From positions 1-24,540 of the IMG/VR virus record IMGVR_UViG_3300001242_000089: a stretch of DNA of 24,540 bases. One strand, given 5' to 3'. The position numbers and the translations under genes were made by a program. The notes below the pieces were generated by a model. That model was not told where the DNA came from, searched no databases, and worked only from the letters and a program-made list of their open reading frames with translations. Shown here piece by piece: positions 3,023 to 18,159 of this stretch; position 1 is the stretch's first letter, and every line of letters begins with the position of its first letter. The DNA comes from a virus.

Positions 3023-3235
3023 ATGGTTAGATTAAAGTTAGTGGAATTGTTGCAAGAGAAGAAGATTGAACCAAGACAATTAGTTATGAAATCAGGCTTA
3101 ACAAGACAAAGTATTTCTAATCTATTAGCTGGGATGCAAACAAGAATAGAATATGATACTATTGATAAGCTCTGTAAGGTCTTAGAATGTGAACCTGGGG
3201 ACTTGTTTGAGTATGTAAAAGAAAAAGAAGATTAA
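3023..3235 (+). CDS. XRE/Cro-type HTH regulator (YozG-like)
   Basis: A 70-residue single-domain DNA-binding protein. LVELLQEKKIEPRQLVMKSGLTRQSISNLL forms helices 1-3 of a lambda-repressor-type fold, followed by DTIDKLCKVLECEPGDLFEY, the usual helices 4-5 of small Cro/C1 or YozG-like regulators. There is no dimerisation or protease domain, so it is not a RecA-cleavable CI. AGGAGG sits at 3008-3013 before the ATG. Divergent promoters with the leftward operon suggest a genetic switch. A bidirectional terminator follows directly. Confidence 0.85.
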   Translation: MVRLKLVELLQEKKIEPRQLVMKSGLTRQSISNLLAGMQTRIEYDTIDKLCKVLECEPGDLFEYVKEKED

Positions 3236-3240
3236 ACAAA

Positions 3241-3267
3241 AAAACCAGTCTATTATAGACTGGTTTT
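3241..3267. terminator. Bidirectional terminator between convergent genes
   Basis: AAAACCAGTCTA (3241-3252) and TAGACTGGTTTT (3256-3267) form a 12-bp stem with a 3-base loop, T-run on one side and A-run on the other, exactly between the XRE gene and the convergent HTH gene. Confidence 0.85.
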
Positions 3268-3667
3268 AATAATCATACATACTTTTCATTTCAGAAATAA
3301 TACTTTCTCGAAGTGGAATATTGAAATCATTAAGCATATTAATCAATACTCTAATTCCACCTCTGAAAATTAAATCTTCATAACCAGCATAAAATTTAAC
3401 TTGGTGCTGATATTCATGTTCAATGAATTTTAATATTTCAGTTTGAATACCATTATCTGTCATCATAAAATCTCTCAAATCATCATCTAATATATAATAT
3501 GACTTCCATTCTTTGTAAGCTATTAATTTTGCTTCTCTGACATATCTCCTGATCTGTTCTTCACTTTTCCTAAGAATATTTGCTGTTTCAGGAATTGTAT
3601 AGAATTTCTGATATTTCATCTGTCCTGCTAATACATCTTTATTGATATTTATTATATTACTTTTCAT
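3266..3667 (-). CDS. HTH (excisionase/MerR-like) DNA-binding protein
   Basis: A 133-residue protein. Residues about 20-68 form an excisionase-type winged helix: FYTIPETANILRKSEEQIRR is the helix-turn-helix and YYILDDDLRDFM the closing wing and helix. The C-terminal half is helical with no recognised domain. It has its own near-perfect promoter (3702-3730), divergent from the plus-strand gene at 4035, and ends in the shared terminator. It may act as a regulator or an excisionase; without an integrase in view the first is safer. Confidence 0.7.
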   Translation of the reverse strand: MKSNIININKDVLAGQMKYQKFYTIPETANILRKSEEQIRRYVREAKLIAYKEWKSYYILDDDLRDFMMTDNGIQTEILKFIEHEYQHQVKFYAGYEDLIFRGGIRVLINMLNDFNIPLRESIISEMKSMYDY

Positions 3668-3850: not shown

Positions 3851-4034
3851 CAAATAAAACCGAAAGGCACTCCATCCCCGACCAAAGGTTTGAGTGCCTT
3901 TTCACCAAAAAGCAGGAAGTTTTATTCCAGCCAGCTTTGCTGTTTCGTATTATTATTTTAAGCAAAAATAGGCTGGTTGTCAAGACTCTCCGCTTGGTTT
4001 TATTAAAAATTTTAGATGTGGAGGGTTTATTACA
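3851..4034 (+). promoter_or_regulatory. Structured leader RNA with internal terminator-like hairpin
   Basis: No gene is seen in 3668-4034 on either strand. The predicted leader holds AAAGGCACTC (3863-3872) pairing with GAGTGCCTTT (3892-3901) followed by TTTT, an intrinsic-terminator shape, and then a longer stem made of CCAGCC/GGCTGG (3927-3932 with 3971-3976) enclosing TTTGCT/AGCAAA (3936-3941 with 3961-3966). GGAGGG at about 4020-4025 is the ribosome site. This resembles an attenuator or regulatory leader; I do not recognise a known riboswitch class. Confidence 0.5.
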
Positions 4035-4868
4035 ATGGGACAAGCTATGAGTAAACTTGAAAGTTATTATGGAAACCTGGAAAATAACTTAGAAAAACAT
4101 AGAAAAAAACATGGAAATAACATAGAAAAATTGCACGTATATAATAATCTTGATAATGATGATGATTATTATATAAGGGTTTTATATGCTAAAAGTAATG
4201 CACTTAAGAAATACTTAGATAGAAACATAGAAAATAGCCTGGAAAATGAGAAAGAGGTAGAAACGATGACAATTAGATTAGTTGGAAAAGAAGAGAACAT
4301 GGAAAATGAATATTTAAGCATAGAAGATGCAGCTAATTATCTTAATTGTACTGGAAAGACTATCAGAAACCGCATAAATAAAGATGGTATGCCTTATGTG
4401 CTGGAAAAGAATAAGAAAATGATTAGTATTAAAAACCTGGAAAAATGGAAGAATGGAAAACCAGAAGAAGTTAAAAACATGGAAAATTCAATAGTAGGAA
4501 ACATGGAAAATGAGAACATGGAAGATATAAAAAACCTGGAACCTGTGGATAACTTTGAATCAGAAAAAATTTCTGATTTGGAAATAATTTATGAACCAGA
4601 AATTATTGAACCAGAAAAAAAATATGTTACTCAGGATGAATTAAATTCTTATACTTTTGCTTTAAAAGATTTTACTGAAGCTATTAATTCGCTTAGACAA
4701 GAAATTTCAGATGTTAAATCAGTTCAAGAAGAAATGCAACGCCAAAAGGATGAAGAAAAATTATCTGAAAGAATCAAAGAATTAGATGAAAAATTTAAAA
4801 CGATTCAAGAAAAACAAAATAGTCCTTGGTATAAAAAAATTTGGTCAAGCATTATAAAAAATAGATAG
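4035..4868 (+). CDS. MerR-type HTH, coiled-coil protein (RacA/DUF3967-like) with intragenic repeats
   Basis: A 277-residue protein. Residues about 94-135 are a MerR/excisionase-type HTH (YLSIEDAANYLNCTGKTIRN); residues about 200-265 form a coiled coil, and the end is aromatic and basic (SPWYKKIWSSI). This order resembles RacA and DUF3967 proteins, which bind DNA and in RacA help anchor chromosomes. The N-terminal 77 residues look low in information and lie over the densest DNA repeats. Internal starts exist at 4266, with AGAGGT upstream, and at 4299 (MENEYLS), so the true protein may be about 190-200 residues with the earlier part being a cis site. Antisense to the late operon, with own promoter and terminator. 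A segregation or regulatory role is inferred. Confidence 0.65.
   Translation: MGQAMSKLESYYGNLENNLEKHRKKHGNNIEKLHVYNNLDNDDDYYIRVLYAKSNALKKYLDRNIENSLENEKEVETMTIRLVGKEENMENEYLSIEDAANYLNCTGKTIRNRINKDGMPYVLEKNKKMISIKNLEKWKNGKPEEVKNMENSIVGNMENENMEDIKNLEPVDNFESEKISDLEIIYEPEIIEPEKKYVTQDELNSYTFALKDFTEAINSLRQEISDVKSVQEEMQRQKDEEKLSERIKELDEKFKTIQEKQNSPWYKKIWSSIIKNR
4074..4544 (+). repeat. Intragenic array of AACMTRGAAAAT repeats
   Basis: Copies of a 12-base motif, all in one orientation, start at 4074, 4086, 4096, 4108, 4119, 4224, 4236, 4296, 4434, 4476, 4500, 4515 and 4533 (the last ones degenerate at the end). The first five are 12, 10, 12 and 11 bp apart, close to one helical turn. Copies at 4096 and 4108 are in a different reading frame from the rest, so the DNA rather than the peptide NxEN seems to be conserved. 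Probably binding sites for a protein, perhaps the one encoded here. Confidence 0.75.
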
Positions 4869-4888
4869 ATAGATTTATAATGCTTGAC
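4844..4888. terminator. Bidirectional terminator, 15-bp stem
   Basis: GTCAAGCATTATAAA (4844-4858) and TTTATAATGCTTGAC (4874-4888) are perfect complements around a 15-base loop containing repeated GATA. It overlaps the 3' end of the plus-strand HTH gene and ends transcripts from it and from the convergent lysis genes. Confidence 0.65.
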
Positions 4889-4894
4889 ATATAA

Positions 4895-5485
4895 TTATTT
4901 TCTCTTTAAATCCAACACAACACTAACAATATAAGCATATTCATTAGCTAATTTATGCATAAAATCTTTATCCAAAAGTAGATTAACTTCTCTTTCATTT
5001 GAAATGAATAAGTCTTCAAACAATATAGCTGGCATTAGTGTTTCTCTTACTTCTGCAAAATTTTCATATTTCTTACCTCTATCTGTGATTCCATATCCCT
5101 TTAAAAATCCCATAATATGTTGATGAATTTGATTTCTATATGTATCAGCAATTTTACCTTTTGCATTAGGATACACAAAAGATTCATAACCATGTGCTTT
5201 TTTGTCTGTGGATGAATTTGTGTGGAATGATAAGTATAAATCAATAGGTTTAATTTTATGCAATCTTTTTGCTATTTCTATTGTTTGGTATAAATCTTGT
5301 TTTGCAGTTACATTCATATTAGTCATAGAAGGTTGAATATTTATTACTTCACATATGAAATTTTTTTTCATTATTTCACCGAATTCCATAGTTAAATCCC
5401 AATTTAAATATTTTTCATATATTTTACTATTTATTGCTCCAGTATCTTTTCCACCATGACCTGAAGCCGTAATTATTCTTGACAT
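4895..5485 (-). CDS. N-acetylmuramoyl-L-alanine amidase endolysin (Amidase_3)
   Basis: A 196-residue zinc amidase that cuts the bond between muramic acid and the peptide stem of peptidoglycan. The Amidase_3 signature is complete: GHGGKDTGA with His10, Glu24, His88 in SFHTN, and the catalytic Glu157 in LFEDLFISNERE. The protein consists of the catalytic domain only; no cell-wall-binding domain follows, which is short for a phage endolysin. There is no signal peptide, so release needs a holin. Its ATG overlaps the stop of the small membrane protein upstream by one base (TAATG), placing it in the lysis cassette. Confidence 0.9.
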   Translation of the reverse strand: MSRIITASGHGGKDTGAINSKIYEKYLNWDLTMEFGEIMKKNFICEVINIQPSMTNMNVTAKQDLYQTIEIAKRLHKIKPIDLYLSFHTNSSTDKKAHGYESFVYPNAKGKIADTYRNQIHQHIMGFLKGYGITDRGKKYENFAEVRETLMPAILFEDLFISNEREVNLLLDKDFMHKLANEYAYIVSVVLDLKRK

Positions 5486-5700
5486 TATTTATTTTCACCT
5501 TCTGATTTATTTTTTGAATCACTTACTAAATTAGTAACTACTACTGCACCACCTAATCCCAATGGAAAACCAAAATAAAATATTAAATCTTTGATATTAT
5601 CTATGGGTTTACCCATAAAACAACTGATAATATAAGAAATTAAACACAATCCTATACAACCAGCTAAAAAATAATCCATTTTTGTAAATTCTTTTTTCAT
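5485..5700 (-). CDS. Small two-TM membrane protein, probable holin
   Basis: A 71-residue protein with two hydrophobic segments (about residues 10-29 and 38-60) separated by a short loop and a charged C-terminal tail (SDSKNKSEGENK). Size, topology and position directly before the amidase are those of a class II holin, which would open the membrane for the endolysin. AGGAGG precedes the ATG at 5700. The specific holin family is not recognised; with the UviB-like protein upstream one of the two may be an antiholin. Confidence 0.65.
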   Translation of the reverse strand: MKKEFTKMDYFLAGCIGLCLISYIISCFMGKPIDNIKDLIFYFGFPLGLGGAVVVTNLVSDSKNKSEGENK

Positions 5701-5709
5701 GTGATCCTC

Positions 5710-5982
5710 CTAATGATTTCTATCTTTAAGAATTTCAATATCTTTTTGCATCAATGTCATACTTGTACTGATTTCTTTAATACTACCAGATATTTCCCTA
5801 TGAGTTTTGTCAGATTTTTCTATATGTTCTAATAATTTTTGTTCTCTTTGTTCTGATTTTAATTTATCTGCTTGATGTTGCTTAAAAGTATAAATTAATA
5901 TACCAATAAAAAGTGTTGGCATAATTCCCATACTCATAACTAACTGACTAAAAACTTGTGGCGAAAATCCTAATATTTCCAT
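5710..5982 (-). CDS. BhlA/UviB-type holin-like protein
   Basis: A 90-residue protein with one N-terminal membrane segment (about residues 10-32, MSMGIMPTLFIGILIYTF) followed by a basic stretch and a coiled coil to the end. This is the arrangement of the BhlA/UviB family found in Bacillus and Clostridium phages and bacteriocin loci, members of which have holin activity. It starts one base after the stop of the HhH protein and precedes the second membrane protein, so translation is probably coupled. Confidence 0.75.
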   Translation of the reverse strand: MEILGFSPQVFSQLVMSMGIMPTLFIGILIYTFKQHQADKLKSEQREQKLLEHIEKSDKTHREISGSIKEISTSMTLMQKDIEILKDRNH

Positions 5983-5983
5983 A

Positions 5984-6364
5984 TTACTGTATCACCACCC
6001 AACTTTTTATAGAATCAAATCTTTTTTCTCCAATTCCAGGAATATTTTTTAATTCTTCTATGTTTTTAATACCATTATTTTTTTCTCTGAAAACTACAAT
6101 AGCATTTGAAATAACTAAACCAACACCAGGGATACTATCTAATTCATCTACTGTAGCATTATTTATATTAATTATTTTATTTTTTGGTATATTATCTGAT
6201 TTTATTAAAGTGTTATTAGAATTGCTTATATTATGAGAATTAATATTTATATTTAGATTGTGTAATGTTAAAAATAAAGTAAATATAAATATAATAATTA
6301 ATAATACAATTAAAATATTTTTTTTATTTATTAATCCCACCTCCCTGTGAAGGTTTAATATCAT
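5984..6364 (-). CDS. Membrane-anchored ComEA-like helix-hairpin-helix protein
   Basis: A 126-residue protein with an N-terminal membrane segment (about residues 15-35), an Asn/Ser-rich linker, and a double helix-hairpin-helix (residues 66-126: ININNATVDELDSIPGVG, then IKNIEELKNIPGIGEKRFDSI). ComEA proteins use this domain to bind DNA outside the membrane. The start is uncertain: ATG at 6364 has no ribosome site, whereas a strong AGGGAGGTGGG lies at about 6337-6346 and is followed by the in-frame ATA at 6331-6329, giving INKKNILIVL. That could be a non-standard start or a mutated ATG. Its place in front of holin-like genes is unusual. Confidence 0.7.
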   Translation of the reverse strand: MILNLHREVGLINKKNILIVLLIIIFIFTLFLTLHNLNININSHNISNSNNTLIKSDNIPKNKIININNATVDELDSIPGVGLVISNAIVVFREKNNGIKNIEELKNIPGIGEKRFDSIKSWVVIQ

Positions 6365-6396
6365 TAATTTGACACTATATTTAATTAATGATATTA
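6356..6396. promoter_or_regulatory. 13-bp inverted repeat over a plus-strand promoter (operator)
   Basis: TAATATCATTAAT (6356-6368) and ATTAATGATATTA (6384-6396) are perfect complements. The first arm ends next to the -35 and the second covers most of the -10 of the promoter at 6369-6397, a typical operator layout. Confidence 0.5.
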
Positions 6397-6397
6397 T
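6369..6397 (+). promoter_or_regulatory. Near-consensus plus-strand promoter antisense to the late operon
   Basis: TTGACA (6369-6374), 17-bp spacer, TATTAT (6392-6397). The expected start near 6404 coincides with the first base pairs of the three-way-junction element. No plus-strand gene follows, so an RNA product is the natural reading. Confidence 0.55.
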
Positions 6398-6402
6398 TAA
6401 AA

Positions 6403-6455
6403 TGTGGACAAGGTGTTACTGCACCTGCTTATTCCTGTGAATAGGCTTGTCCACA
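6403..6455 (+). ncRNA. Three-way-junction structured element, candidate small RNA
   Basis: Outer stem TGTGGACA/TGTCCACA (6403-6410 with 6448-6455, 8 bp); second stem AGGTG/CACCT (6411-6415 with 6422-6426), 6-base loop; third stem GCTTATTC/GAATAGGC (6427-6434 with 6439-6446, one T-G pair), 4-base loop. Only base 6447 is unpaired in the junction. On the plus strand it starts where the promoter at 6369-6397 would initiate. On the minus strand it is followed by TTTT and could instead be a terminator between tail and lysis genes. Confidence 0.4.
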
Positions 6456-6460
6456 CAATA

Positions 6461-6697
6461 TTAGATTATTTCCCCTAAAATTATCCATCCTTTACCAACA
6501 ATAGCCAAAAGTACCCGATCATTGGCTGTAGGTGTATAACTGGACAGGTATGGGTATGTTTTTGTGCTGGCACTGCTTTCACCATCAAAAATAATATTTG
6601 GTCTACCGGAAGTGTAATCATCTGCTATTATGCCTATTCTAAAAGCAGATGCCGATTTTTCAGGGGACATAATTTCTAAAAACTTTTCTGGACTCAT
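6461..6697 (-). CDS. Small tail-tip-associated protein
   Basis: A 78-residue protein, beta-rich, with the ordered elements SGRPNIIFDGE, YPYLSSYTPTANDRVLLA and GWIILGEI, as seen in small phage proteins that follow the tail lysin/Tal gene; an OB-like barrel is likely. Its N-terminus repeats MSPEK twice. The ATG overlaps the stop of the 368-residue protein by four bases (ATGA), with GAGGA upstream, so it is translated with it. It is the last gene of the tail cassette and shares its higher GC content. Confidence 0.6.
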   Translation of the reverse strand: MSPEKFLEIMSPEKSASAFRIGIIADDYTSGRPNIIFDGESSASTKTYPYLSSYTPTANDRVLLAIVGKGWIILGEII

Positions 6698-7800
6698 ATA
6701 GTTACAGTCCTCCTAATTAAGTGTCTCATTTTCGCCCCAGCCTTTAACTCCATGCTCCAAGATATTTCAGAATACTTGGCCGATATACCCAAACCGGAAA
6801 AAGCCAAGGTGAAAACATCTGCCTCGCTATGCATAGGCATAATAGCCGTTTCCAGGGTTACTTGCTCGTAAATCTGGCTATCCTCATAAGCCTTTTTCTC
6901 CACCAAATCATCAAGTGTCGTTTGATCTGCTGCATCTACTTGCTGGTATGTAGTAATCGTTCTACCCCTTGAAACTGTACTCGTCAAGCTGTTGGGGTTG
7001 GTGTTGGTATATATAGAAGAGATTGTCGCTTGGTCTGCCTCAGACACGTACAAAACCCACTTGTTCGGCACCCCAAACAAGTCCAACTCCTGCGCCACAT
7101 CGGGAAAAATAACGCTTTGATTATCATCCCGGTAGGTGTACTCGCTTGCCCGGTTTGCAGGTGTAACGTAAGGTTGTGCTATCGCCTGACCATTCTCGTC
7201 GAACCAAAGGGAGCGATAATTAATAGCACTAAGCAGGTCATTTATTATTTTCAGTTTTTCTGTTCCAGGACTCCAATCCCAATCAGTTGACAGCGTTAAA
7301 GCTGTGGCTGTAAGGTTTTGTTGGGTAATACCAGCACCGTCCAATACTGCTTTTATCGCTATGATATAATTCGTCCCAGTGGTCACAGTGTACCGATATT
7401 CGATCTTGTCATCGACGAGTACCTGAAGCTGATCATAAGCCTCTACCTCTCTTGTGACCACTCCAGCAGCGTCCACCTTGCGCGGAGGCGTGGACAATAA
7501 AAACACCCCTTGCGGCCATTCTGCCCAACCACCATCTGGCATTTTAAGTCGTACCCATGGCTTGATTCTGTCGGATAAAAAGTTAATGGTGCCATCGTCA
7601 CGGATGGAAAAGCGGGCCGTGCGTTTTATTTCGTTCTCGGTATTGTTGTTAACAGAAGCGTTCAGAACATTGTCTAACTGCCTCTTAAATACGTTTGTGC
7701 TGTCAAGAAGTTCATATCTAAAAGCCATTTGCCTATTTGCCGAATGGAGAGCGGTAATAACCTGAGCCTCAGTATATCCATTTTTTACAAGACTTTGCAA
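6694..7800 (-). CDS. Tail tip / Tal-like (gp27-type) baseplate protein
   Basis: A 368-residue protein. Elements such as KPWVRLKMPDGGWAEWPQGVFLL, the REVEAYDQLQVLVDDKI stretch, and LKIINDLLSAINYRSLWFDENG are typical of the phage tail-associated protein family that forms the tail hub below the Dit ring. It lacks the long C-terminal lysin or fibre part of many Tal proteins, so only the hub is present. A TTG start at 7800 follows GAGGTGG within the end of the preceding gene, from which it is separated by two bases. GC content is near 48 percent, clearly above the head genes. Confidence 0.65.
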   Translation of the reverse strand: MQSLVKNGYTEAQVITALHSANRQMAFRYELLDSTNVFKRQLDNVLNASVNNNTENEIKRTARFSIRDDGTINFLSDRIKPWVRLKMPDGGWAEWPQGVFLLSTPPRKVDAAGVVTREVEAYDQLQVLVDDKIEYRYTVTTGTNYIIAIKAVLDGAGITQQNLTATALTLSTDWDWSPGTEKLKIINDLLSAINYRSLWFDENGQAIAQPYVTPANRASEYTYRDDNQSVIFPDVAQELDLFGVPNKWVLYVSEADQATISSIYTNTNPNSLTSTVSRGRTITTYQQVDAADQTTLDDLVEKKAYEDSQIYEQVTLETAIMPMHSEADVFTLAFSGLGISAKYSEISWSMELKAGAKMRHLIRRTVTI

Positions 7801-7802
7801 GG

Positions 7803-10800
7803 TTACACCACCTCGCTATAATCGATCTCGTCAACCTTCAGTTGTATAGTGTACCCCCAGGCACGTTCATCAGTCACGGGTAGGGATCTAATCACCCCAA
7901 ATACCTTCCTCGAACGCTCATCTCTAAAACATAATGTAGCCTTTCGCCTAACCAGAGCTTGCAGGGCAGCAAATTCCGTCCCAGCTCTTAGCAACGGCAC
8001 AGAAACATTTACAACGCTGGTTTCAGACTCTCCAAACTCCATTATTGGCTTAGATCGCCCGGCAAACTGCATCAAAGTTCCTTCTGCCTCCCATGATTGT
8101 TCACGCGATTCATAGCATTTAAGCTGTATGATTGTCCCTGCTTGGTTCGTAACGTCAAAAAGCCATGAACCGGACAAAGTTATGCTCGCGCTGGCTGTCG
8201 TGCTGTCCGTGGTTGTTTCGTTACTACCGACTGCCCTGGCTTTGTATTCGTAGGTTGTGCCACTGGCCACAGCATAGTCATTGTAACTGCCATTTTCAGC
8301 TATGCCCATTGCTATCCTTGTCCATGCAGTTTCCCCAGATATGCGGCGGTAAAGGTAATTGCTGCTTACTTCCGGTTCCGGTGGTGTCTCTGCCGGGTTT
8401 GTAATGGAGATTGTGATATAACTACCTTGCCCCGTTGCTGTGATTGTCGGAGTTGCAGGAGGTGTAAATGCCACGGAGAATGTCCTTACTGCCTCAGTGG
8501 AAGGTACGTCCTTGGCATCCCAGACTGTCAGTTTTGCTTTGTACGCTGTGCTGTTTTCCAGGTCATAACTGGCTGTTCGACTCCGTGCCGTAGTATCACT
8601 CGTTTTTGCGCTGTCCCAAAGCACCGCATCTGAGTTGTCCGTTAGCTGTAGTTGGTAGGCAGATTGCCCTTCGGATTCTGCATCGCTAAAAGTCCAGTTT
8701 ACCGTCAAATTAGACGTGCTAACAGTGTCGCCGTTGTTGACAGGGCTTGTGATTGTTACTGTCGGCGCTGCGCTAGTGTAAAAAGTGCTGTAGTCGCTGT
8801 ATGGCCCTACTTCGTCCAACTCGTCCCAAGTCTTCACCCTCCACTGGTACTGTTTGTTGTTGGTTAGTGTCGCCCCACTGACTGTGTGACTGCCAGACGT
8901 TCCAGCCATTTTACCAGTATCCACGGCATCACTTTCAAGTCCAACCTCGCGTATTTGTAGTTGGTAGGCGCTCTGAGTATCACCCACATTATCGTCGCTG
9001 AAAGTCCAGGAGAAAGCACCGTCTGCGGTGGCATCATAATTAGCCTTTGTCGTCAAAGTTGGAGCGTTTGGAGCCAAGTTAAGAACAGTTTTGTCGAACT
9101 GCACAGCACCAGCAGACGTATCTTTCCAGATGTAGCCGATAATCGAACCAACTTCGCGCTCCATCGCGGAGACATCGCTGCCGTTGCCAAGTTCTGCTTC
9201 TGCGCTCCAGTTTGCCCCGCCGTCTGTACTGGTCTTTTGGTAAACTTTACCGCTACGATCATACTTGACATAGTATTTGCCTGTATTATCATAGGAGATT
9301 GTGGGTTTTTGGCCCACCGCTACATCAACCAGCGTTCCCCAATTTGCCCCGCCGTCAGTTGAACGGTTGAAAAATACGTGGTACGTGGTCGTGTGAGTTG
9401 CCCCATAGCCTTGCCAAACACAAGGTATGTATCCATCTACATCCACTACAGCACAGGAGTTTGATTGGATGTAAGTATACCCTCCGTAAACTAAAACGCC
9501 TCTGCCCAAATCTGTACTTAACCAACTCGTAGTTCTGTAATTGCAATATATACCATAATAAGCACCACTAGAATTTCGAAAATCAAATAATATGACAGGA
9601 TTACCACTAATTTTTATAACAATTGAAGGATTTATTAAATTAACACCTGTATTGTATGTTGTTACCTGCTCTACACTACCCCAAGTAACGCTATCTACTG
9701 AGATAGTGCCCTTACAGTAACGAATGTTTTTAGAATCTGGACGAGTTGATACTATACCAGAGAGTGTAGCATGTAATTCCGTGCCAGCGCCATTGATAGC
9801 AATAGAACATCCATTTTGACCAGACAAAGAATTATCAATGTCAATTTTAGGTAAATCAGTATTAGTGACTGTTATAGCATCAAAGACACACGAAACAAAT
9901 GTACTACTATATTGGACAACCAAGTAACACATAGTGCCATAGCATACCAAAGCATAATCATAAACCGTTGCTGCCCCGTAATAACAAAGCTGTGTCCATG
10001 TTGCACCATTATCAGCGGATTTGTAAAGCCTAACCTTGCTTCCTGCGCTGTCCCATACTCCACAAACCAACCACCCATTACTTAACTTGACAGTCTTTCT
10101 ACCACCATTGCCGGATGTATCATAAGCCGCAGACACAACAACAGTAGGGTCAATTAAAACAGGATAAACCCTATCTACACTGCTAATCCAAGCATTATCC
10201 ACGGCAATGTCGAACTGTAAAATACCGTTTTCATTTGAGTTAACCCGGTATTTACCGTAAGTCATGGCTCGTTCAAGAATCTTTGAGTCGTAGGCAACAA
10301 TCTGCGGTAAGGTAAATAGTGCATTACCATCAGCGTCGATGATTTCAATATTACCGCCTGTCTCGAATGGCCCAGTAATAACAAGACCATTCGCCCTAAC
10401 TCCTAAATCGGAGTCAAACTCAATTCTGCCACCAAAGACAAAATCAATATTGCCGAATAGCCACGGTAAAGGATCGCGGTGAAATCCTTGCACCAAAATT
10501 TGATGTTTTAACCTGTCATTTTCGACGATAAACCAATCGTCAACATCAGGAAAAGCCCGGTTAAATCTAGCATAGTTAGCCTTAGTTTCTAAGGGTACAT
10601 CCTGGACGTTGTAAATACTATCCTCAGTGCCAAATTCGTCAATGTACTTCATCGAATTAGGAGTCCAAGAAAATCTGCGGCCTTTTGAAATAAAGACTAC
10701 CCTGTTACCAGTCTCGTAAAATTCAGATCTGACGATACCGTTATCCGCTACACTATAAGACTGGTCTGTAGGGATTAATTTAATCGTATTATCTAGTTGT

Positions 10801-11215: not shown

Positions 11216-14200
11216 TTATCCTCTTGCCCTGGCCGCTTGTGGCAACCTAGCAAAGAAGTCTGATACTGATTTCATTTCTGCTATATCTCTTGCTGGGATT
11301 GTTGCATGTATTGTGTAGTTATTTATTACTTGTCCACTTGCTCCTGACATAGATATAGTATTTGTAGTTGGCATTAGGCGTTGTATTGCTCCTAATAATG
11401 CACTTGTCATCATGGAAGGTAATTTTGATAATGGCATAATTGCCTCTTGTGGGTGAATATATACTAAACCCTCATCAGTTGTAATTGCACCTTCTGCCGC
11501 CTGTGGAATAAAATCCTTATCAAAAGCAGATTTACCTATTGCGGCCTTTTTGCCACTTACATATGTGACTTCGTAGTACCCAGGAGCTGTTTCTTTGTAC
11601 CCGGTAATGCCTTGGCCGTACAGACTACCAGCAATAGATGTTGCAATTGATACAGGATTTGTAATACCTATTATTGCTGCATTCATTGTTGCTACAGCTG
11701 CTTTTACAAGAGCTACTGAATCTTGTATACCTGCGGCAAGACGCTCACCTAATGTTTTTCCAGAATTATACCATTGAGGATTGTATGTACCTAACAAAGT
11801 AATTAGTTCGTCATTATTCTGAAGCAGTAATAATCTACGGGTTTCAGCCTCCATAGCTTCAGAACTTCTAAGTTGATCATAGTGTCCCTGGATTCTAGTG
11901 CGTTCATTTGCAAGTGCTAATTCTTGGTCTTCGCGTAGTTGTGAATATTCATCTTGAATGCGATTGCGCTCTGATTCAAAATAAATATTTTGGTCTTTGC
12001 GCAAAGTTTCGTAATGCTGGGAAATGGTTTTTCGTTCATCTTCCTTAGAGTTCAAAAAGATATCCAGTCGATCTTCCTCTACCTGTTCCTGCTCGCTTGC
12101 ACTGTCCTTAATGTCATTTATTTCACTAGACAGTTGCTCAATTCTTACCTTCCTGGCTTTTTCGTCCTGCTCTTTTTGCCAGTTTTGCTTTTCTATGTCA
12201 ATTTTTGCCTGGATTAAAGACTTTTCGAACTCGGATGTTGTAAGCAATTTCTGCTGTTCAAGCTTACTTATCTTGGAATTAAAAAGACGCTGCTTTTCAG
12301 CTTCGTCCTCTTGTTCTACAGTTTCTGTTAGGAAGTCAATTTCATCCTGTCGGATTTTTATAGCTGCATCTGTAGACGCTTTTAACGTGGCTATTTTCCC
12401 TGCTGAAGTATCCTTTTCGGCCTGAACTTGCATATCTAGTGACGATAATGTAGCCTGTTCTTGATCGTTTAGGGCAGCTAACTTAGCAGCCGTTTGCTGA
12501 TCTAATGATGTAAGTAGTGCCGTTTCCTGAGTGTCTATCTCGGCCAATCTTGCCGCTGTTTCCTGAGCAAATATTGAAGTTCCATTATCCAGTGCGTCCA
12601 GTTCAGCCTGTTCCTGCTGGTCATACATATTCTTTAAAGCCGTTTGAATATGTCCAGCTATTTCGTCAATATTTTTTACAGCAGCATCAAATGCTGTTGC
12701 TGTCGCTGCTTTAGCTACCGATACTGCATATCCGTCCATAGATTTAGTAGTGCTTGTAATACTTGCATCAATTTTTTCCACAGAAATATTAGCTAAATCT
12801 AATTTTTTCTTATACTCCAAGGTTTCAGTAGCGTTATCGCCAAGTCTTAGTTTTGAATCTTCATAAGCTGTAGTTAGTGCAGTAACTTTAGCCTTAGCTT
12901 CCTGTTTGTCAATATTAAGACCTTTTAGTTTCAGTTGATACTTTTCCGTCTCCGTGGCATTGTCGCCAAGAGCGATAGTCTCTAGATCTAGATTCTCCCT
13001 AGCTAATTCAGATGCATCAGCTGATAATTGCATAGATGATGTATAAGCGTCACCTATTTCTTTTACTGAAGATGCTCTTGCTTCTGCAATTTCTTCAATT
13101 GTAGCAGCTTCCTTTTCTTCCGCTTCTCTTGTAGTTTTGTCCTTTATTGCTTCCGCAGTAGATTTTTTATATTCATTCATAGCAGTAGTGGTATTTTCAA
13201 TACTTGCATTAATCTGTTTCACGGAAATATTAGCCAAGTCAAGATCGCGTTTATATGCTAAAGTTTCAGTTGCATTTTCACCAAGTGCAACCCTCGAATC
13301 TTCGTAGGCAATTGCAAGTGCTACTGCCTTTGCTGTAGCTTCTTGCTTATCTATAGCCAGACCTTTCAATTTCAGCTGGTATTTCTCTGTTTCTGTGGCG
13401 TTATCGCCAAGTGCAGTTTCTTCCAGTTTTAATTGCTCTCTAGCTAATTCAGCCGTATCAGCTGCTTTCTGCATAGACGCTGTGAAGGAGTTCTGTATCT
13501 GATTTATCCCACTAGCTTTTGCGGCATTTTTATACGCTTCTCCGGCCTTAGTGACATTATTTTCAGTAACGACAAGTTCTGAATTTGCTATTTTTAAATC
13601 AGAAGCAAACTGTTTGGTCTGTTCATTGTTTTCTCCTAAAGTTTGGAGAGAACTTTCATAAGCCGTTTTCAGTATATCGACTTTCTCTTTAGCCAGATCG
13701 CGTTCAGTATTTGCTTCTTTTATGGCAAGTCTAGCCCTGTCGGTTTCTGTCGCATTTTCACCAAGTGCAGAATTTTCAGCGGCAAGCTCTGCTCTAAATT
13801 CTGCTGATTTGTTGTTAAAATCCGTCATAGCAGAATTGTACGGATTCATTACGCTATTTAACTTTTTGTCTTCCTCTGATTCTGTATCTGTTTCAGGGAT
13901 ACTAGAACTAACGGAACTAGAACCACCGCCACTAGGATAGTTTTCTGTCGGGGAAGTAGTACCTGGACTACCACCTTCTTCTCCTGTAGTTTCATTGCCC
14001 ATTTCTTTATCAATATTTGCTATTTTTGTAGTAACAGTTTTAAGATCAACATCAGCCAATTTATATTGTTTGTAAAAATAATCAATAACACTAGCTGGCA
14101 ACCCAGCTTTTACAGCTTTATCATGTGCTTTAAGATTTTCCGTAACTACTGCCTGGAATTCTTCTTGATCTAAAATTAATTGATCCTTTGTGTTTTGCAA

Positions 14201-17200
14201 CCTTTCTGTATCAGGAGTATCACTAGTAAATGTGTCGGCTACACCTTCTAATTCTTTTCGAGGCAATTCATTATCAAAATATACTTTACCTACAGCAGCC
14301 TCAACATCAGCTTTGAGAGTATCGTAAGTTACATCTGTACTTGTCCCTGTCCCTGGTGTTTCTGCGTTTTGCAATTCTATCGCTACAGGTGGCCAAGGTT
14401 TACCTGCATAATGTTCGTCTATTTCGGCCTGACTTGGTTTTTTGTTGGATATTCCCGATCTTCTCGAACCGCTATCTGTCCAATGGTAATAGTTGTCAGT
14501 ATGATAAAAATATGCTGCTCCAGCATCTAGTGCTAACTGACGCTGATCAACACCATTAGAATCTGTATATGCTTGGTATGTTCCATCTGCATATCCTGGT
14601 ATACCCATATCTAACAGTTTTTTTGTGTATTCGTGAGGTATAACCTGTGTTCCAGATTTCAAAGATAATAATTTAGGGCCGGATTCTTTGAATATAAACG
14701 GATCGCCATCGGGAGGGTCAATTATCTCATTTCCTTCCTCGTCGATAATGGCCGCACCACCAGGATGTCCACCAGTGCCGCTTGCATAAGTTGGAATGAC
14801 TATAAATTTACCGTCACTATTCCAATAGCCATAATTGCCCTGATACCACGTATAATTTGTTGGTGCAGGGGGGCCGATAGGTGGATTAGTAGTAGTGCCA
14901 GAACTAGGCGTACTAGAACTAGAACCAGAAGATCCCGAATCAGAAACAGCGTTATTAGCCTCAATAGCTTTTTTACGCATACTTTCCAATTTACTAGTAA
15001 CAGTATCAATTTCATAACCAAGACTTTTGAAATGTGTTTTTGCAGCAGCTAAAGCATCATCATAGTGTTGCTTAACTAGCTTCAGGGATTCATTATATTT
15101 TTGTTCTGCTTTCCGGAGTTCGTTCTTGGCATTAGTTTCTGTTTGATCTCTCTCTGACTTGGCAAGCCGTTCCTTTTCTGAGTATTCGTTCTTAACGGCA
15201 CTCATTTTCTCGGTGATGCCCTGCTTTTTGATCCTGATTTCTTCCTTGCGTTGCCATTCGGCCATGTCGGCCTCAGCTTCAGCCTTTTCCTTGGCCGTTT
15301 TTGCCGAGTTAATTTTGTCGATGTAGGACTGTCTTGTTTTTTCCCTGGAACGCTCGTCCTCTGCATCATCAAGTTCGTCAAGTTGATCTTGATAAATTGC
15401 AAGTTGTTCATCCCTGGCTTCGGATGCTTCGGAAATTGTTTGCTCGTATGTTTCTTTAGCTTTTTCCATAATGCCATCATAAGACTCTTTTGCTGCATCG
15501 TATATGTCTTTTGCCGCTTGCTCCTGCTCAGTTGCAGCTTCTTTAGCTGAAGTTACTACTGCATCATAGTTACTTTGTGCAGTTTTGGTAATTTCATCCA
15601 GAGCTTCAATATTTTTCTTTAAGGCTTCTTCAGATTCTTTTATAGCCGCTGCTTCCTGCTTGAACTTATTATTTTCAATTTCTTTATTGAGTTTTTCGTG
15701 TGCTATTTTGGCTATTTCAAGATTATACTTATATTGCTTAATTGCCTCGTCATTCTCGCCTAATTTTTGTTTGGCAGTTTCGTATATGTCGTTTAAAACA
15801 CTTACCCTCTGTGCTGACTGTTCTTGTTGCAATTGGAGTTTTTGAAGTTCATTTTCAAGACGTTGAATTTCTGTTACATTGTCACTTAGTGCCATTGTGT
15901 TTAGTTCAAGTTGTGCTGTTTGAAGGTTAAATGTTTTATCTAAATCACTTAATATAGTAGATACTGCACTCTGTACTGCCTGTGCTAAATTTTGTGCTGC
16001 CTTTTCAGCATCGGAAATATTTTCCTGTATACCTTTAGCTAGTCCCTCAGTTATATATTTTCCTAATTCTTCAGTCACTTTTGAAGGACTTTGTATATTA
16101 AAAAATCCTGTTATAGCATCTTTAACACTTTTTGCTACTGCTAATGCAGCGTCTTTAGCTGATTGTAATTTTGATGTTATACCGTTTATTATACCTTGAA
16201 CGATATTACTACCCCAGGTTATGGCTTCAGACCATAATTTTGAAATATTTGATTTTATACCGTCGAATGTAGCTTTAATAGAATTGTATAATTCTACACC
16301 TTTAGCTTTTATAGTGTCCCAGTTTTTGTAAAGTGCTATTCCTCCTGCTACAAGTGCTGCTATTGCTATAACAGTTAAACCTATCGGCCCCGTTGCTACG
16401 GCAAATGCCCTTCCTAGTTGTGGAGCAATTTTTATTATTGATGATATAGAATCTGATACCATACTAGCTGCTATTAGCATCGGCCCAATAGCAGCTGCAA
16501 TACCAGCAATAACAATGGCTGTCTTTTGACCTACAGGAGATAAAGCATTAAATCCATCAACCATAGTTTTAATAGCTGGTACAATAGTATTGGTTATAAT
16601 ATCAGATAATGGTAATAATGCAGGAGCAATTGCTGCTTGCATTTCTCTCATAGCAATTGTTAAAGATAATCCTGGATTATTACCATAAACTGCTTTTGCT
16701 GCATCCTCTGTAGCACCTTGGAAGTTATCAAGACCTTTAGCACCTTCAGACATAGCTAATACTACACCTTGCCCTAAGTCTTCTACTGTAGTTCCGAATA
16801 ATGCTATAGAAGCTCTATCCCTAGCTACCGGATCTTCTAAAGCTGATATAGCTAACAATGTGGCCTGAAATGCAGCGTTTGCTTTTTCTCCACCACCAGC
16901 TATATCAGCAGCCATTTTATTAGCATCCAGTCCAAGGGTAGTAAAGGCTTCAGTAGAAGTTTTGCTACCATCTTTTAGGCGTAAAAAACTTTCTTTGGCT
17001 GCATCACCAATTTTATCTAAATTAAATGCACCTTGTTCAGCACCAGCAATAAGAGTAGCCATAGCTTGATCAGCGGTAAAACCCATAGCAGCAAATTGTG
17101 GAGCATATTCACGCATAGTATCAAGCAATTCACCTGAAAAATCTCCACCTTTTTGAAAACCAACAGTAAGAATATCAAGAGCATCTTGACCTTCAATTCC

Positions 17201-17665
17201 AAAATTTTTCATTACAACACCAGCAGAAGCTGTTACTGCTGATACATCTTGTTCAAAAACATCAGCAATTGTCATAGCGCCTTGAGCCACTTTTTGTAAT
17301 TCATCTTCGGCTAAGATGCCCATATTTTGTCTTACTGTTTTTATTGATTCAGTTGCTTCTTCAATACTATCTCCAAACCCACTTTTCCATACTTCCTTTG
17401 CAACTACTCCTAGATCGTTTGCTTCATCTGCTGTTATGCCTAATTGTGCCTGTAGTTTTCCAGTAGCTGCTTCAGCATCCATTGCTCCTTTTAATATTAC
17501 AGCACCAGCAGCAGAAATAGGAGCAGTAATAGCCAAACTCATCGTTTGACCAATACCCTTCATTTTGTCACTAACAGAATTTAACTGATTTTGTGCATCT
17601 TGTAAACCTCGCTGAAATGCAGACATATCAAGACCTAACTGAACAAATAATGAACCAATTTCCAA
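11216..17665 (-). CDS. Tape measure protein, 2149 residues
   Basis: Sets tail length and is thought to be ejected ahead of the DNA. The N-terminus (GLDMSAFQRGLQDAQNQLNS) and the DILTVGFQKGGDFSGELLDTM region are typical tape measure sequence. Two hydrophobic segments occur at about residues 375-405 and 415-445. Long coiled coils follow (about 580-920 and 1740-1990). A Gly/Ser/Pro linker leads to a module with PGGAAIIDEEGNE and SGTQVIPHEYTKKLL near 955-1030, which usually marks the C-terminus of tape measures; a second such module (TTDEGLVYIHPQEAIMP) ends the protein. Four related segments contain ALGxNATE. TTG start at 17665 behind GGGGTGA. No peptidase motif was seen. Confidence 0.9.
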   Translation of the reverse strand: MEIGSLFVQLGLDMSAFQRGLQDAQNQLNSVSDKMKGIGQTMSLAITAPISAAGAVILKGAMDAEAATGKLQAQLGITADEANDLGVVAKEVWKSGFGDSIEEATESIKTVRQNMGILAEDELQKVAQGAMTIADVFEQDVSAVTASAGVVMKNFGIEGQDALDILTVGFQKGGDFSGELLDTMREYAPQFAAMGFTADQAMATLIAGAEQGAFNLDKIGDAAKESFLRLKDGSKTSTEAFTTLGLDANKMAADIAGGGEKANAAFQATLLAISALEDPVARDRASIALFGTTVEDLGQGVVLAMSEGAKGLDNFQGATEDAAKAVYGNNPGLSLTIAMREMQAAIAPALLPLSDIITNTIVPAIKTMVDGFNALSPVGQKTAIVIAGIAAAIGPMLIAASMVSDSISSIIKIAPQLGRAFAVATGPIGLTVIAIAALVAGGIALYKNWDTIKAKGVELYNSIKATFDGIKSNISKLWSEAITWGSNIVQGIINGITSKLQSAKDAALAVAKSVKDAITGFFNIQSPSKVTEELGKYITEGLAKGIQENISDAEKAAQNLAQAVQSAVSTILSDLDKTFNLQTAQLELNTMALSDNVTEIQRLENELQKLQLQQEQSAQRVSVLNDIYETAKQKLGENDEAIKQYKYNLEIAKIAHEKLNKEIENNKFKQEAAAIKESEEALKKNIEALDEITKTAQSNYDAVVTSAKEAATEQEQAAKDIYDAAKESYDGIMEKAKETYEQTISEASEARDEQLAIYQDQLDELDDAEDERSREKTRQSYIDKINSAKTAKEKAEAEADMAEWQRKEEIRIKKQGITEKMSAVKNEYSEKERLAKSERDQTETNAKNELRKAEQKYNESLKLVKQHYDDALAAAKTHFKSLGYEIDTVTSKLESMRKKAIEANNAVSDSGSSGSSSSTPSSGTTTNPPIGPPAPTNYTWYQGNYGYWNSDGKFIVIPTYASGTGGHPGGAAIIDEEGNEIIDPPDGDPFIFKESGPKLLSLKSGTQVIPHEYTKKLLDMGIPGYADGTYQAYTDSNGVDQRQLALDAGAAYFYHTDNYYHWTDSGSRRSGISNKKPSQAEIDEHYAGKPWPPVAIELQNAETPGTGTSTDVTYDTLKADVEAAVGKVYFDNELPRKELEGVADTFTSDTPDTERLQNTKDQLILDQEEFQAVVTENLKAHDKAVKAGLPASVIDYFYKQYKLADVDLKTVTTKIANIDKEMGNETTGEEGGSPGTTSPTENYPSGGGSSSVSSSIPETDTESEEDKKLNSVMNPYNSAMTDFNNKSAEFRAELAAENSALGENATETDRARLAIKEANTERDLAKEKVDILKTAYESSLQTLGENNEQTKQFASDLKIANSELVVTENNVTKAGEAYKNAAKASGINQIQNSFTASMQKAADTAELAREQLKLEETALGDNATETEKYQLKLKGLAIDKQEATAKAVALAIAYEDSRVALGENATETLAYKRDLDLANISVKQINASIENTTTAMNEYKKSTAEAIKDKTTREAEEKEAATIEEIAEARASSVKEIGDAYTSSMQLSADASELARENLDLETIALGDNATETEKYQLKLKGLNIDKQEAKAKVTALTTAYEDSKLRLGDNATETLEYKKKLDLANISVEKIDASITSTTKSMDGYAVSVAKAATATAFDAAVKNIDEIAGHIQTALKNMYDQQEQAELDALDNGTSIFAQETAARLAEIDTQETALLTSLDQQTAAKLAALNDQEQATLSSLDMQVQAEKDTSAGKIATLKASTDAAIKIRQDEIDFLTETVEQEDEAEKQRLFNSKISKLEQQKLLTTSEFEKSLIQAKIDIEKQNWQKEQDEKARKVRIEQLSSEINDIKDSASEQEQVEEDRLDIFLNSKEDERKTISQHYETLRKDQNIYFESERNRIQDEYSQLREDQELALANERTRIQGHYDQLRSSEAMEAETRRLLLLQNNDELITLLGTYNPQWYNSGKTLGERLAAGIQDSVALVKAAVATMNAAIIGITNPVSIATSIAGSLYGQGITGYKETAPGYYEVTYVSGKKAAIGKSAFDKDFIPQAAEGAITTDEGLVYIHPQEAIMPLSKLPSMMTSALLGAIQRLMPTTNTISMSGASGQVINNYTIHATIPARDIAEMKSVSDFFARLPQAARARG

Positions 17666-17778: not shown

Positions 17779-18159
17779 TTGAAGAAAATATGTATATCTA
17801 TTTTAATTATTTTTTTACTATGTGTTTTATCAGCTTGTAGTAGTACTAGTAATAATAATAGTACTACTACAAAACAAGAACATTCTACTGTTGAACCAAA
17901 ACCAAAACATTCTCCTGCTGAAGCTTCAGTTATGGCAGAACAATTTGCACAGAAAAAACTCAAAAGTCCTGGATCTGCAAAATTTCAATCATTTTTAGAT
18001 CAGAAAATTGAAGATTTAGGAGAAGGTAAATATAAAATATCATCCTATGTTGACAGTCAAAATTCTTTTGGTGCATTAGTTCGTAATAACTACACATGCA
18101 CTTTGAAATATATTGATAACAATAAATGGCAACTTGAAAATTTAGAATTTAAGCAATAA
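17779..18159 (+). CDS. Lipoprotein moron, candidate superinfection exclusion factor
   Basis: A 126-residue lipoprotein. Lys-rich start, hydrophobic stretch and lipobox LSAC give cleavage before Cys at about residue 20; a Ser/Asn/Thr linker follows. The rest (about 50-126) has LKSPGSAKFQS and YVDSQNSFGALVRNNYTC, a domain I have seen in clostridial and Bacillus lipoproteins and phage proteins of unknown function. AGGAGG at 17764-17769 is nine bases before TTG at 17779, so the in-frame TTG at 17761 is rejected. It is the only plus-strand gene in the head-tail block, has its own promoter, and meets the chaperone gene tail to tail two bases away. The Ltp lipoprotein of Streptococcus phage TP-J34, which blocks superinfection through the tape measure, is a functional analogy only. 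Confidence 0.75.
   Translation: MKKICISILIIFLLCVLSACSSTSNNNSTTTKQEHSTVEPKPKHSPAEASVMAEQFAQKKLKSPGSAKFQSFLDQKIEDLGEGKYKISSYVDSQNSFGALVRNNYTCTLKYIDNNKWQLENLEFKQ

Follow-up and report, generated by a model that had tools for sequence, protein, structure and literature searches.

A putative operator-controlled antisense promoter and a three-way-junction fold at the left edge of a phage lysis module

Between the last tail gene and the lysis genes of a fragment of an uncultivated tailed phage, a perfect inverted repeat, a sigma-70-type promoter lying within it and a compact three-way junction follow one another directly (positions 6356–6455), and the repeat, the promoter and the distance from promoter to stem are all kept in one other phage (contig IMGVR_UViG_3300025000_000245, hereafter L024). 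As a tentative explanation, possible but short of probable, we propose that a repressor-controlled antisense promoter makes a 5′-folded RNA that would limit the leakage of late transcription into the lysis genes. The promoter, the repeat and the fold each exceed the expectation from shuffled sequence, which counts in favour of that explanation. Among the three readings offered by the first-pass annotation (a small RNA antisense to late transcription, a DNA cruciform site and an elaborate terminator), the antisense RNA is the one best supported by the conservation in L024.

Gene order and the inverted repeat with its promoter

The DNA analysed (the ‘window’), a virus record of 24.5 kb, has its late genes on the minus strand. 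They run from the tape measure gene (11216–17665) through large and small tail genes (10829–6461) to a last tail-module gene of 78 amino acids (6461–6697), which ends 6 bases short of the junction element. The lysis module, on the same strand, comprises genes for a ComEA-like helix-hairpin-helix (HHH) protein with an N-terminal hydrophobic (membrane) segment (5984–6337), a BhlA-family holin (5710–5982; Holin_BhlA, 3.4e-05), a 71-amino acid protein (5485–5700) that gave no family match and whose size and position make it a second candidate holin, and an Amidase_3 endolysin (4895–5485). The stretch 6356–6455 thus occupies the space between the stop codon of the last tail gene (6461) and the ComEA-like gene. 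The latter has a strong Shine-Dalgarno sequence (GGGAGGTGGG, at about 6338–6348), followed by a TTA start codon in the window and TTG in L024; a longer version of the reading frame (5984–6364) would begin with an ATG at 6364, inside an arm of the inverted repeat. Matches of the ComEA-like protein to GenBank phage records cover the HHH part only.

A plus-strand reading frame at 17779–18159, opposite to the late genes, has a TTG start with a good Shine-Dalgarno sequence and encodes a lipoprotein-like product with a signal peptide and LSAC lipobox and no Pfam match; it appears moron-like and is possibly a superinfection-exclusion protein.

The inverted repeat (6356–6396) consists of two perfect 14-bp arms (6356–6369 and 6383–6396) separated by a 13-base spacer; it had been recognized as perfect at first pass, with the arms given as 13 bp. 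Arms of at least 14 bp were found in none of 40 block-wise dinucleotide shuffles (500-base blocks, spacers of up to 20 bases). Embedded in the repeat, as had been described, is a plus-strand sigma-70-type promoter with an extended −10 element (6369–6397), comprising TTGACA (6369–6374), a 17-base spacer with TGA ahead of the −10, and TATTAT (6392–6397), for a score of 11/12. The arms of the repeat overlap both hexamers, and the repeat probably serves a phage DNA-binding protein as its operator; HTH proteins are encoded elsewhere in the window at 3023–3235 (Cro/C1-type), 3266–3667 and 4035–4868. Five sites scoring at least 11/12 occur in the window, versus 1.67 per shuffled window, and only the one described here possesses an extended −10, a combination expected 0.08 times per window. 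Its placement within the repeat, together with a start at the fold, is therefore unlikely to be due to chance.

The promoter is directed into the tail genes, opposite to late transcription and with the lysis genes behind it. No plus-strand reading frame of at least 50 amino acids starts between the element and position 7030, in agreement with the earlier remark that no gene follows on that strand; the frame that does start at 7030 lies inside a tail gene (6694–7800). A candidate minus-strand promoter for the ComEA-like gene within the repeat (TATAGT/TAGAAT, with a poor −35 element), judged by eye, was unpersuasive.

Other inverted repeats are present in the window. In a perfect 18-bp repeat with a 21-base spacer (1464–1520), the right arm, read on the minus strand, overlaps an extended −10 promoter of that strand (TTGCCT-17-TATACT), which precedes the gene at 1021–1413; the repeat reads as a second long-armed, operator-like site, with a sequence that differs from that at 6356–6396. 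A 15-bp repeat with a 15-base spacer and TTGAC motifs at both arm ends (4844–4888) is located at the convergent ends of the amidase gene and a plus-strand HTH gene, and could be a two-way terminator or a further operator.

A three-way junction at the predicted start

The plus strand of the 53-base element at 6403–6455 forms three stems with one unpaired base, exactly the fold first reported for it. The stems comprise P1 (8 bp, UGUGGACA/UGUCCACA), P3 (6 bp, AGGUGU/GCACCU) and P2 (8 bp, GCUUAUUC/GAAUAGGC), and the unpaired base is a U. Within a 76-nucleotide context, the plus strand has a minimum free energy of −26.7 kcal/mol (z −5.1); it is the most stable three-way junction found when both strands of the window were scanned, with the runner-up elsewhere at −18.1. 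The −10 element ends at 6397 and the predicted start, 7 bases further on, falls at 6404, one base inside the first pair of the junction (6403:6455), so that the coincidence of start and first pair proposed in the first-pass annotation holds to within a base. The minus strand of the window folds less well (−22.4, z −3.7), 4.3 kcal/mol weaker than the plus strand, because two U-G pairs of the plus-strand RNA become A.C on the other strand. The sequence that follows the minus-strand reading is TTTTAATAAT, and the TTTT noted there previously is present. Comparison of the window with Rfam covariance models, including that of the C4 antisense RNA, gave no matches at the gathering score, and only chance-level hits at E values of up to 5.

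From these features we infer the following course of events. Transcription from the promoter would run against the late genes, with an RNA that starts no more than one or two bases from the first junction pair and so has its 5′ end tucked into a stem. This RNA would be perfectly complementary to its presumptive target, the late mRNA at the tail/lysis junction, a stretch that could itself fold as a mirror-image junction. Pairing in trans (or collision of polymerases in cis) might then mark late transcripts that leak through, so that they are cleaved or stopped early, ahead of the ComEA-like, holin and amidase genes, and a repressor acting at the operator would turn the promoter off once the late genes are needed. 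Such an arrangement would help to set when the lysis genes switch on. The near self-complementarity of the junction means that the same three-armed shape would be expected of both RNAs, the antisense one and the late mRNA; a more specific proposal, in which loop-loop contact between this mirror-image pair acts, together with the operator, as a lysis-timing switch at the edge of a swappable cassette, seems to us quite unlikely.

The homologous element in a second phage

Searches with three proteins of the lysis module (ComEA-like, BhlA and amidase) led to a single contig with a homologue of the element, the 37.9-kb phage contig L024, in which the junction lies at 3883–3934, and to its sister L027, described below. 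Nucleotide identity between the window and L024 is 85% in the junction, 88% in the repeat and leader, 90% in the ComEA-like gene, 97.1% in the BhlA gene and 86% in the amidase gene, versus 51% over 100 bases in the upstream tail gene, where the two are unrelated (the last tail gene of the window has no homology to its L024 counterpart). The homology begins exactly at the element and extends through the lysis cassette, indicating that the element travels with the lysis module, and by this comparison we take 6356–6455 to be the conserved left edge of an exchangeable module.

L024 keeps repeat arms of 13 bp and a promoter of the form TTGACA-17-TGA-TATTGT, with a −10 element weaker than the TATTAT of the window. 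The two junctions differ by eight bases (five substitutions and three indel bases), and the three-way fold is kept. P1 of L024 has lost inner pairs and gained AUA/UAU on the outside, an outward shift of this outer stem by 3 bp; four bases have been added between the −10 element and the old start of the stem, so that the distance from the −10 to P1 is again 7 bases. In P2 a pair is lost on both sides, and a U-G has become U-A, a change that keeps the pair on the plus strand and corresponds to A.C on the minus strand. When the window element was mutated with the same load (five substitutions and three indels), 1.6% of the mutants formed a junction at least as stable as that of L024, and when the L024 element was mutated, none of 5000 reached the stability of the window junction. 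These random-mutant tests are passed by the folds of both strands, and the 65-base core of L024 is about equally stable on either (−24.3 on the plus strand versus −24.8 on the minus strand); both results, along with the weaker TATTGT, count against the antisense explanation. The alignment of the junctions was model-based, as consensus folds based on MAFFT misaligned the two. Pair changes comprise the pair deleted on both sides and the U-G/U-A exchange, with no double change; as there are only two sequences, no true compensatory change is seen.

The window and L024 hold the only copies of the element in everything searched, which is a further point against the antisense explanation. The stem pattern TGTGGACAAG..CTTGTCCACA matched three unrelated places in viral contigs (a palindrome at a contig end, a dyad and a long hairpin), none with the promoter or the junction, and a promoter-plus-stem pattern matched 16 places, of which only that on the L024 contig was genuine. 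The conserved P2/P3 pattern was found on L024 only, and a pattern for the repeat arms returned three other places, all lacking both TTGACA and a junction. DNA similarity searches of phages and plasmids gave AT-rich chance hits only, and candidate further copies within the phage contigs were chance matches in genes. A covariance model found nothing in 398 genomes of the phylum of L023's MAG, a search that had no positive control and carries little weight.

The boundary at the element would also suit a role for the DNA itself, in which the edge of the module is marked by sites for protein binding or cruciform formation (an operator, or a replication or recombination boundary), namely the repeat and the branched palindrome. 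The stems are symmetrical on both strands, neither strand is favoured in L024, and P1 contains TTGTCCACA/TGTGGACAA, which we take to be one base off a DnaA box. However, any functional module edge would produce a boundary at a conserved element, the outer stem has shifted together with the predicted start, the U-G pairs of the window benefit only a plus-strand RNA, and no recombinase or replication gene adjoins the element. We consider this account unlikely. We would place slightly lower still, as quite unlikely, an account without any RNA function. In it, the repeat serves some promoter as operator, the antisense site is a spurious or merely noisy promoter, and two neighbouring insertions have left the fold behind as a relic. 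The small number of copies, the absence of a downstream terminator and the abundance of promoter-like sites in this AT-rich DNA (12.6 expected in a looser scan) are compatible with it, but an 11/12 site with an extended −10 is rare, and a fold that survives eight differences is itself unlikely to arise by chance.

Late transcription at the tail/lysis junction and known phage antisense RNAs

Five tail-gene relatives (L006–L010) and L027, a sister contig that has the amidase and lacks the junction element, have ordinary terminators on the late strand, each a hairpin plus a T-run, close to this position, several of them called by eye (a strict scripted rule recovered only some). The tail/lysis junction is thus a common control point for late transcription, and the lysis module may have replaced the terminator by something else. 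At this position an antisense promoter scores 11/12 in the window and 10/12 in both L024 and L027; none of at least 10/12 was found in the 12 tail-gene relatives examined, a contrast in favour of the antisense explanation.

The syntenic junction of L027 (3484–3572) contains several GTATAC palindromes that overlap an antisense TTGACG-18-TATACT, so that its antisense promoter arises within the palindromes, with no junction after it, a point against the antisense explanation, and with a late-strand terminator (CCTCCACTTGGAGGTTTTTT) beyond them. Judging from its sequence, this control region is an alternative one that precedes the same holin and amidase genes. L024 and L027 also encode an ATPase-like protein (777 and 791 amino acids; minus strand, L024 5474–7807 and L027 4633–7008), convergent to the phage amidase gene, which has only a sub-threshold AAA match in Pfam and is by eye reminiscent of conjugation coupling ATPases.

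The terminators of these relatives bear on a further explanation, that the minus-strand junction functions in the late RNA as a terminator, an attenuator or a processing or 3′-end-protecting structure, and that the plus-strand promoter is incidental. The junction is found 6–10 bases past the tail stop codon in both phages, and in the window the minus strand folds as well and is followed by TTTT. That fold is nevertheless the weaker one, with A.C where the plus strand has U-G. A scan of the late strand detected no terminator at the element in either phage; in the window a branched stem is followed only by TTTTAATAAT, in place of a G+C-rich hairpin with a T-run, and the site was not flagged. L024 has ATATGTACTAAC at the corresponding position, with no T-run, and termination is therefore no conserved property of the element. 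The initial idea of an elaborate terminator is weakened accordingly, yet retains the precedent of the nearby terminators in the relatives and L027, and we regard a late-strand role as doubtful, while giving it more credence than the DNA-site account.

For the antisense explanation, the 3′ end of the RNA is a separate matter. On the plus strand of the window, the scan for intrinsic terminators flagged the weak P3 hairpin followed by GCTTATTCCT and nothing further up to position 8000, and in L024 it flagged the same weak P3 site and one other, likewise weak. These results predict no discrete small RNA, which counts against the antisense explanation; the transcript may instead be a long one that is processed, or transcription itself may matter more than its product. 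If real, the element would represent a compact antisense brake that heads a phage lysis cassette and is inherited with it, such that a phage gaining the cassette also gains its timing control. It would also be a non-lambdoid, small and structured addition to the phage antisense RNAs whose targets are known, which are few.

The RNAs sar of P22 and c4 of P1/P7 are located in immunity regions, and lambda OOP RNA has its own terminator. Unlike OOP, the arrangement described here shows no terminator and has its promoter embedded in a long repeat; it has no sequence or Rfam match, and the lack of any Rfam family at threshold likewise sets it apart from sar and c4, which are also small phage antisense RNAs (PMC12197685). 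OOP is 77 nucleotides long, antisense to cII and RNase III-dependent (PMC12197685, PMC5869508). Like OOP, the RNA predicted here would be a short phage RNA made from a promoter of its own and antisense to a lytic transcript that is polycistronic, and a promoter opposite to the phage mRNA is indeed evident at the sequence level (TTGACA-17-TGA-TATTAT on the plus strand); OOP overlaps a coding region, whereas the predicted RNA overlaps the tail/lysis junction. STnc6030 of prophage BTP1 (786 nucleotides), which acts in superinfection exclusion, is similarly antisense to late structural genes (PMC7067206); it has been seen experimentally, whereas we describe a predicted start and a compact 5′ fold. 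PAK_P4as15, an antisense RNA of about 550 nucleotides at an endolysin gene, is likewise a proposed brake on lysis (summarised in PMC12197685); it overlaps the endolysin gene itself, whereas the transcript predicted here would lead away from the lysis genes. The terminators of L006–L010 and L027 share the genomic position of the element but are simple late-strand hairpins with a T-run, in place of a branched fold and an antisense promoter. By analogy, the logic of the proposed element would be comparable to that of lambda OOP acting on cII and of the late-gene antisense RNAs STnc6030 and PAK_P4as15.
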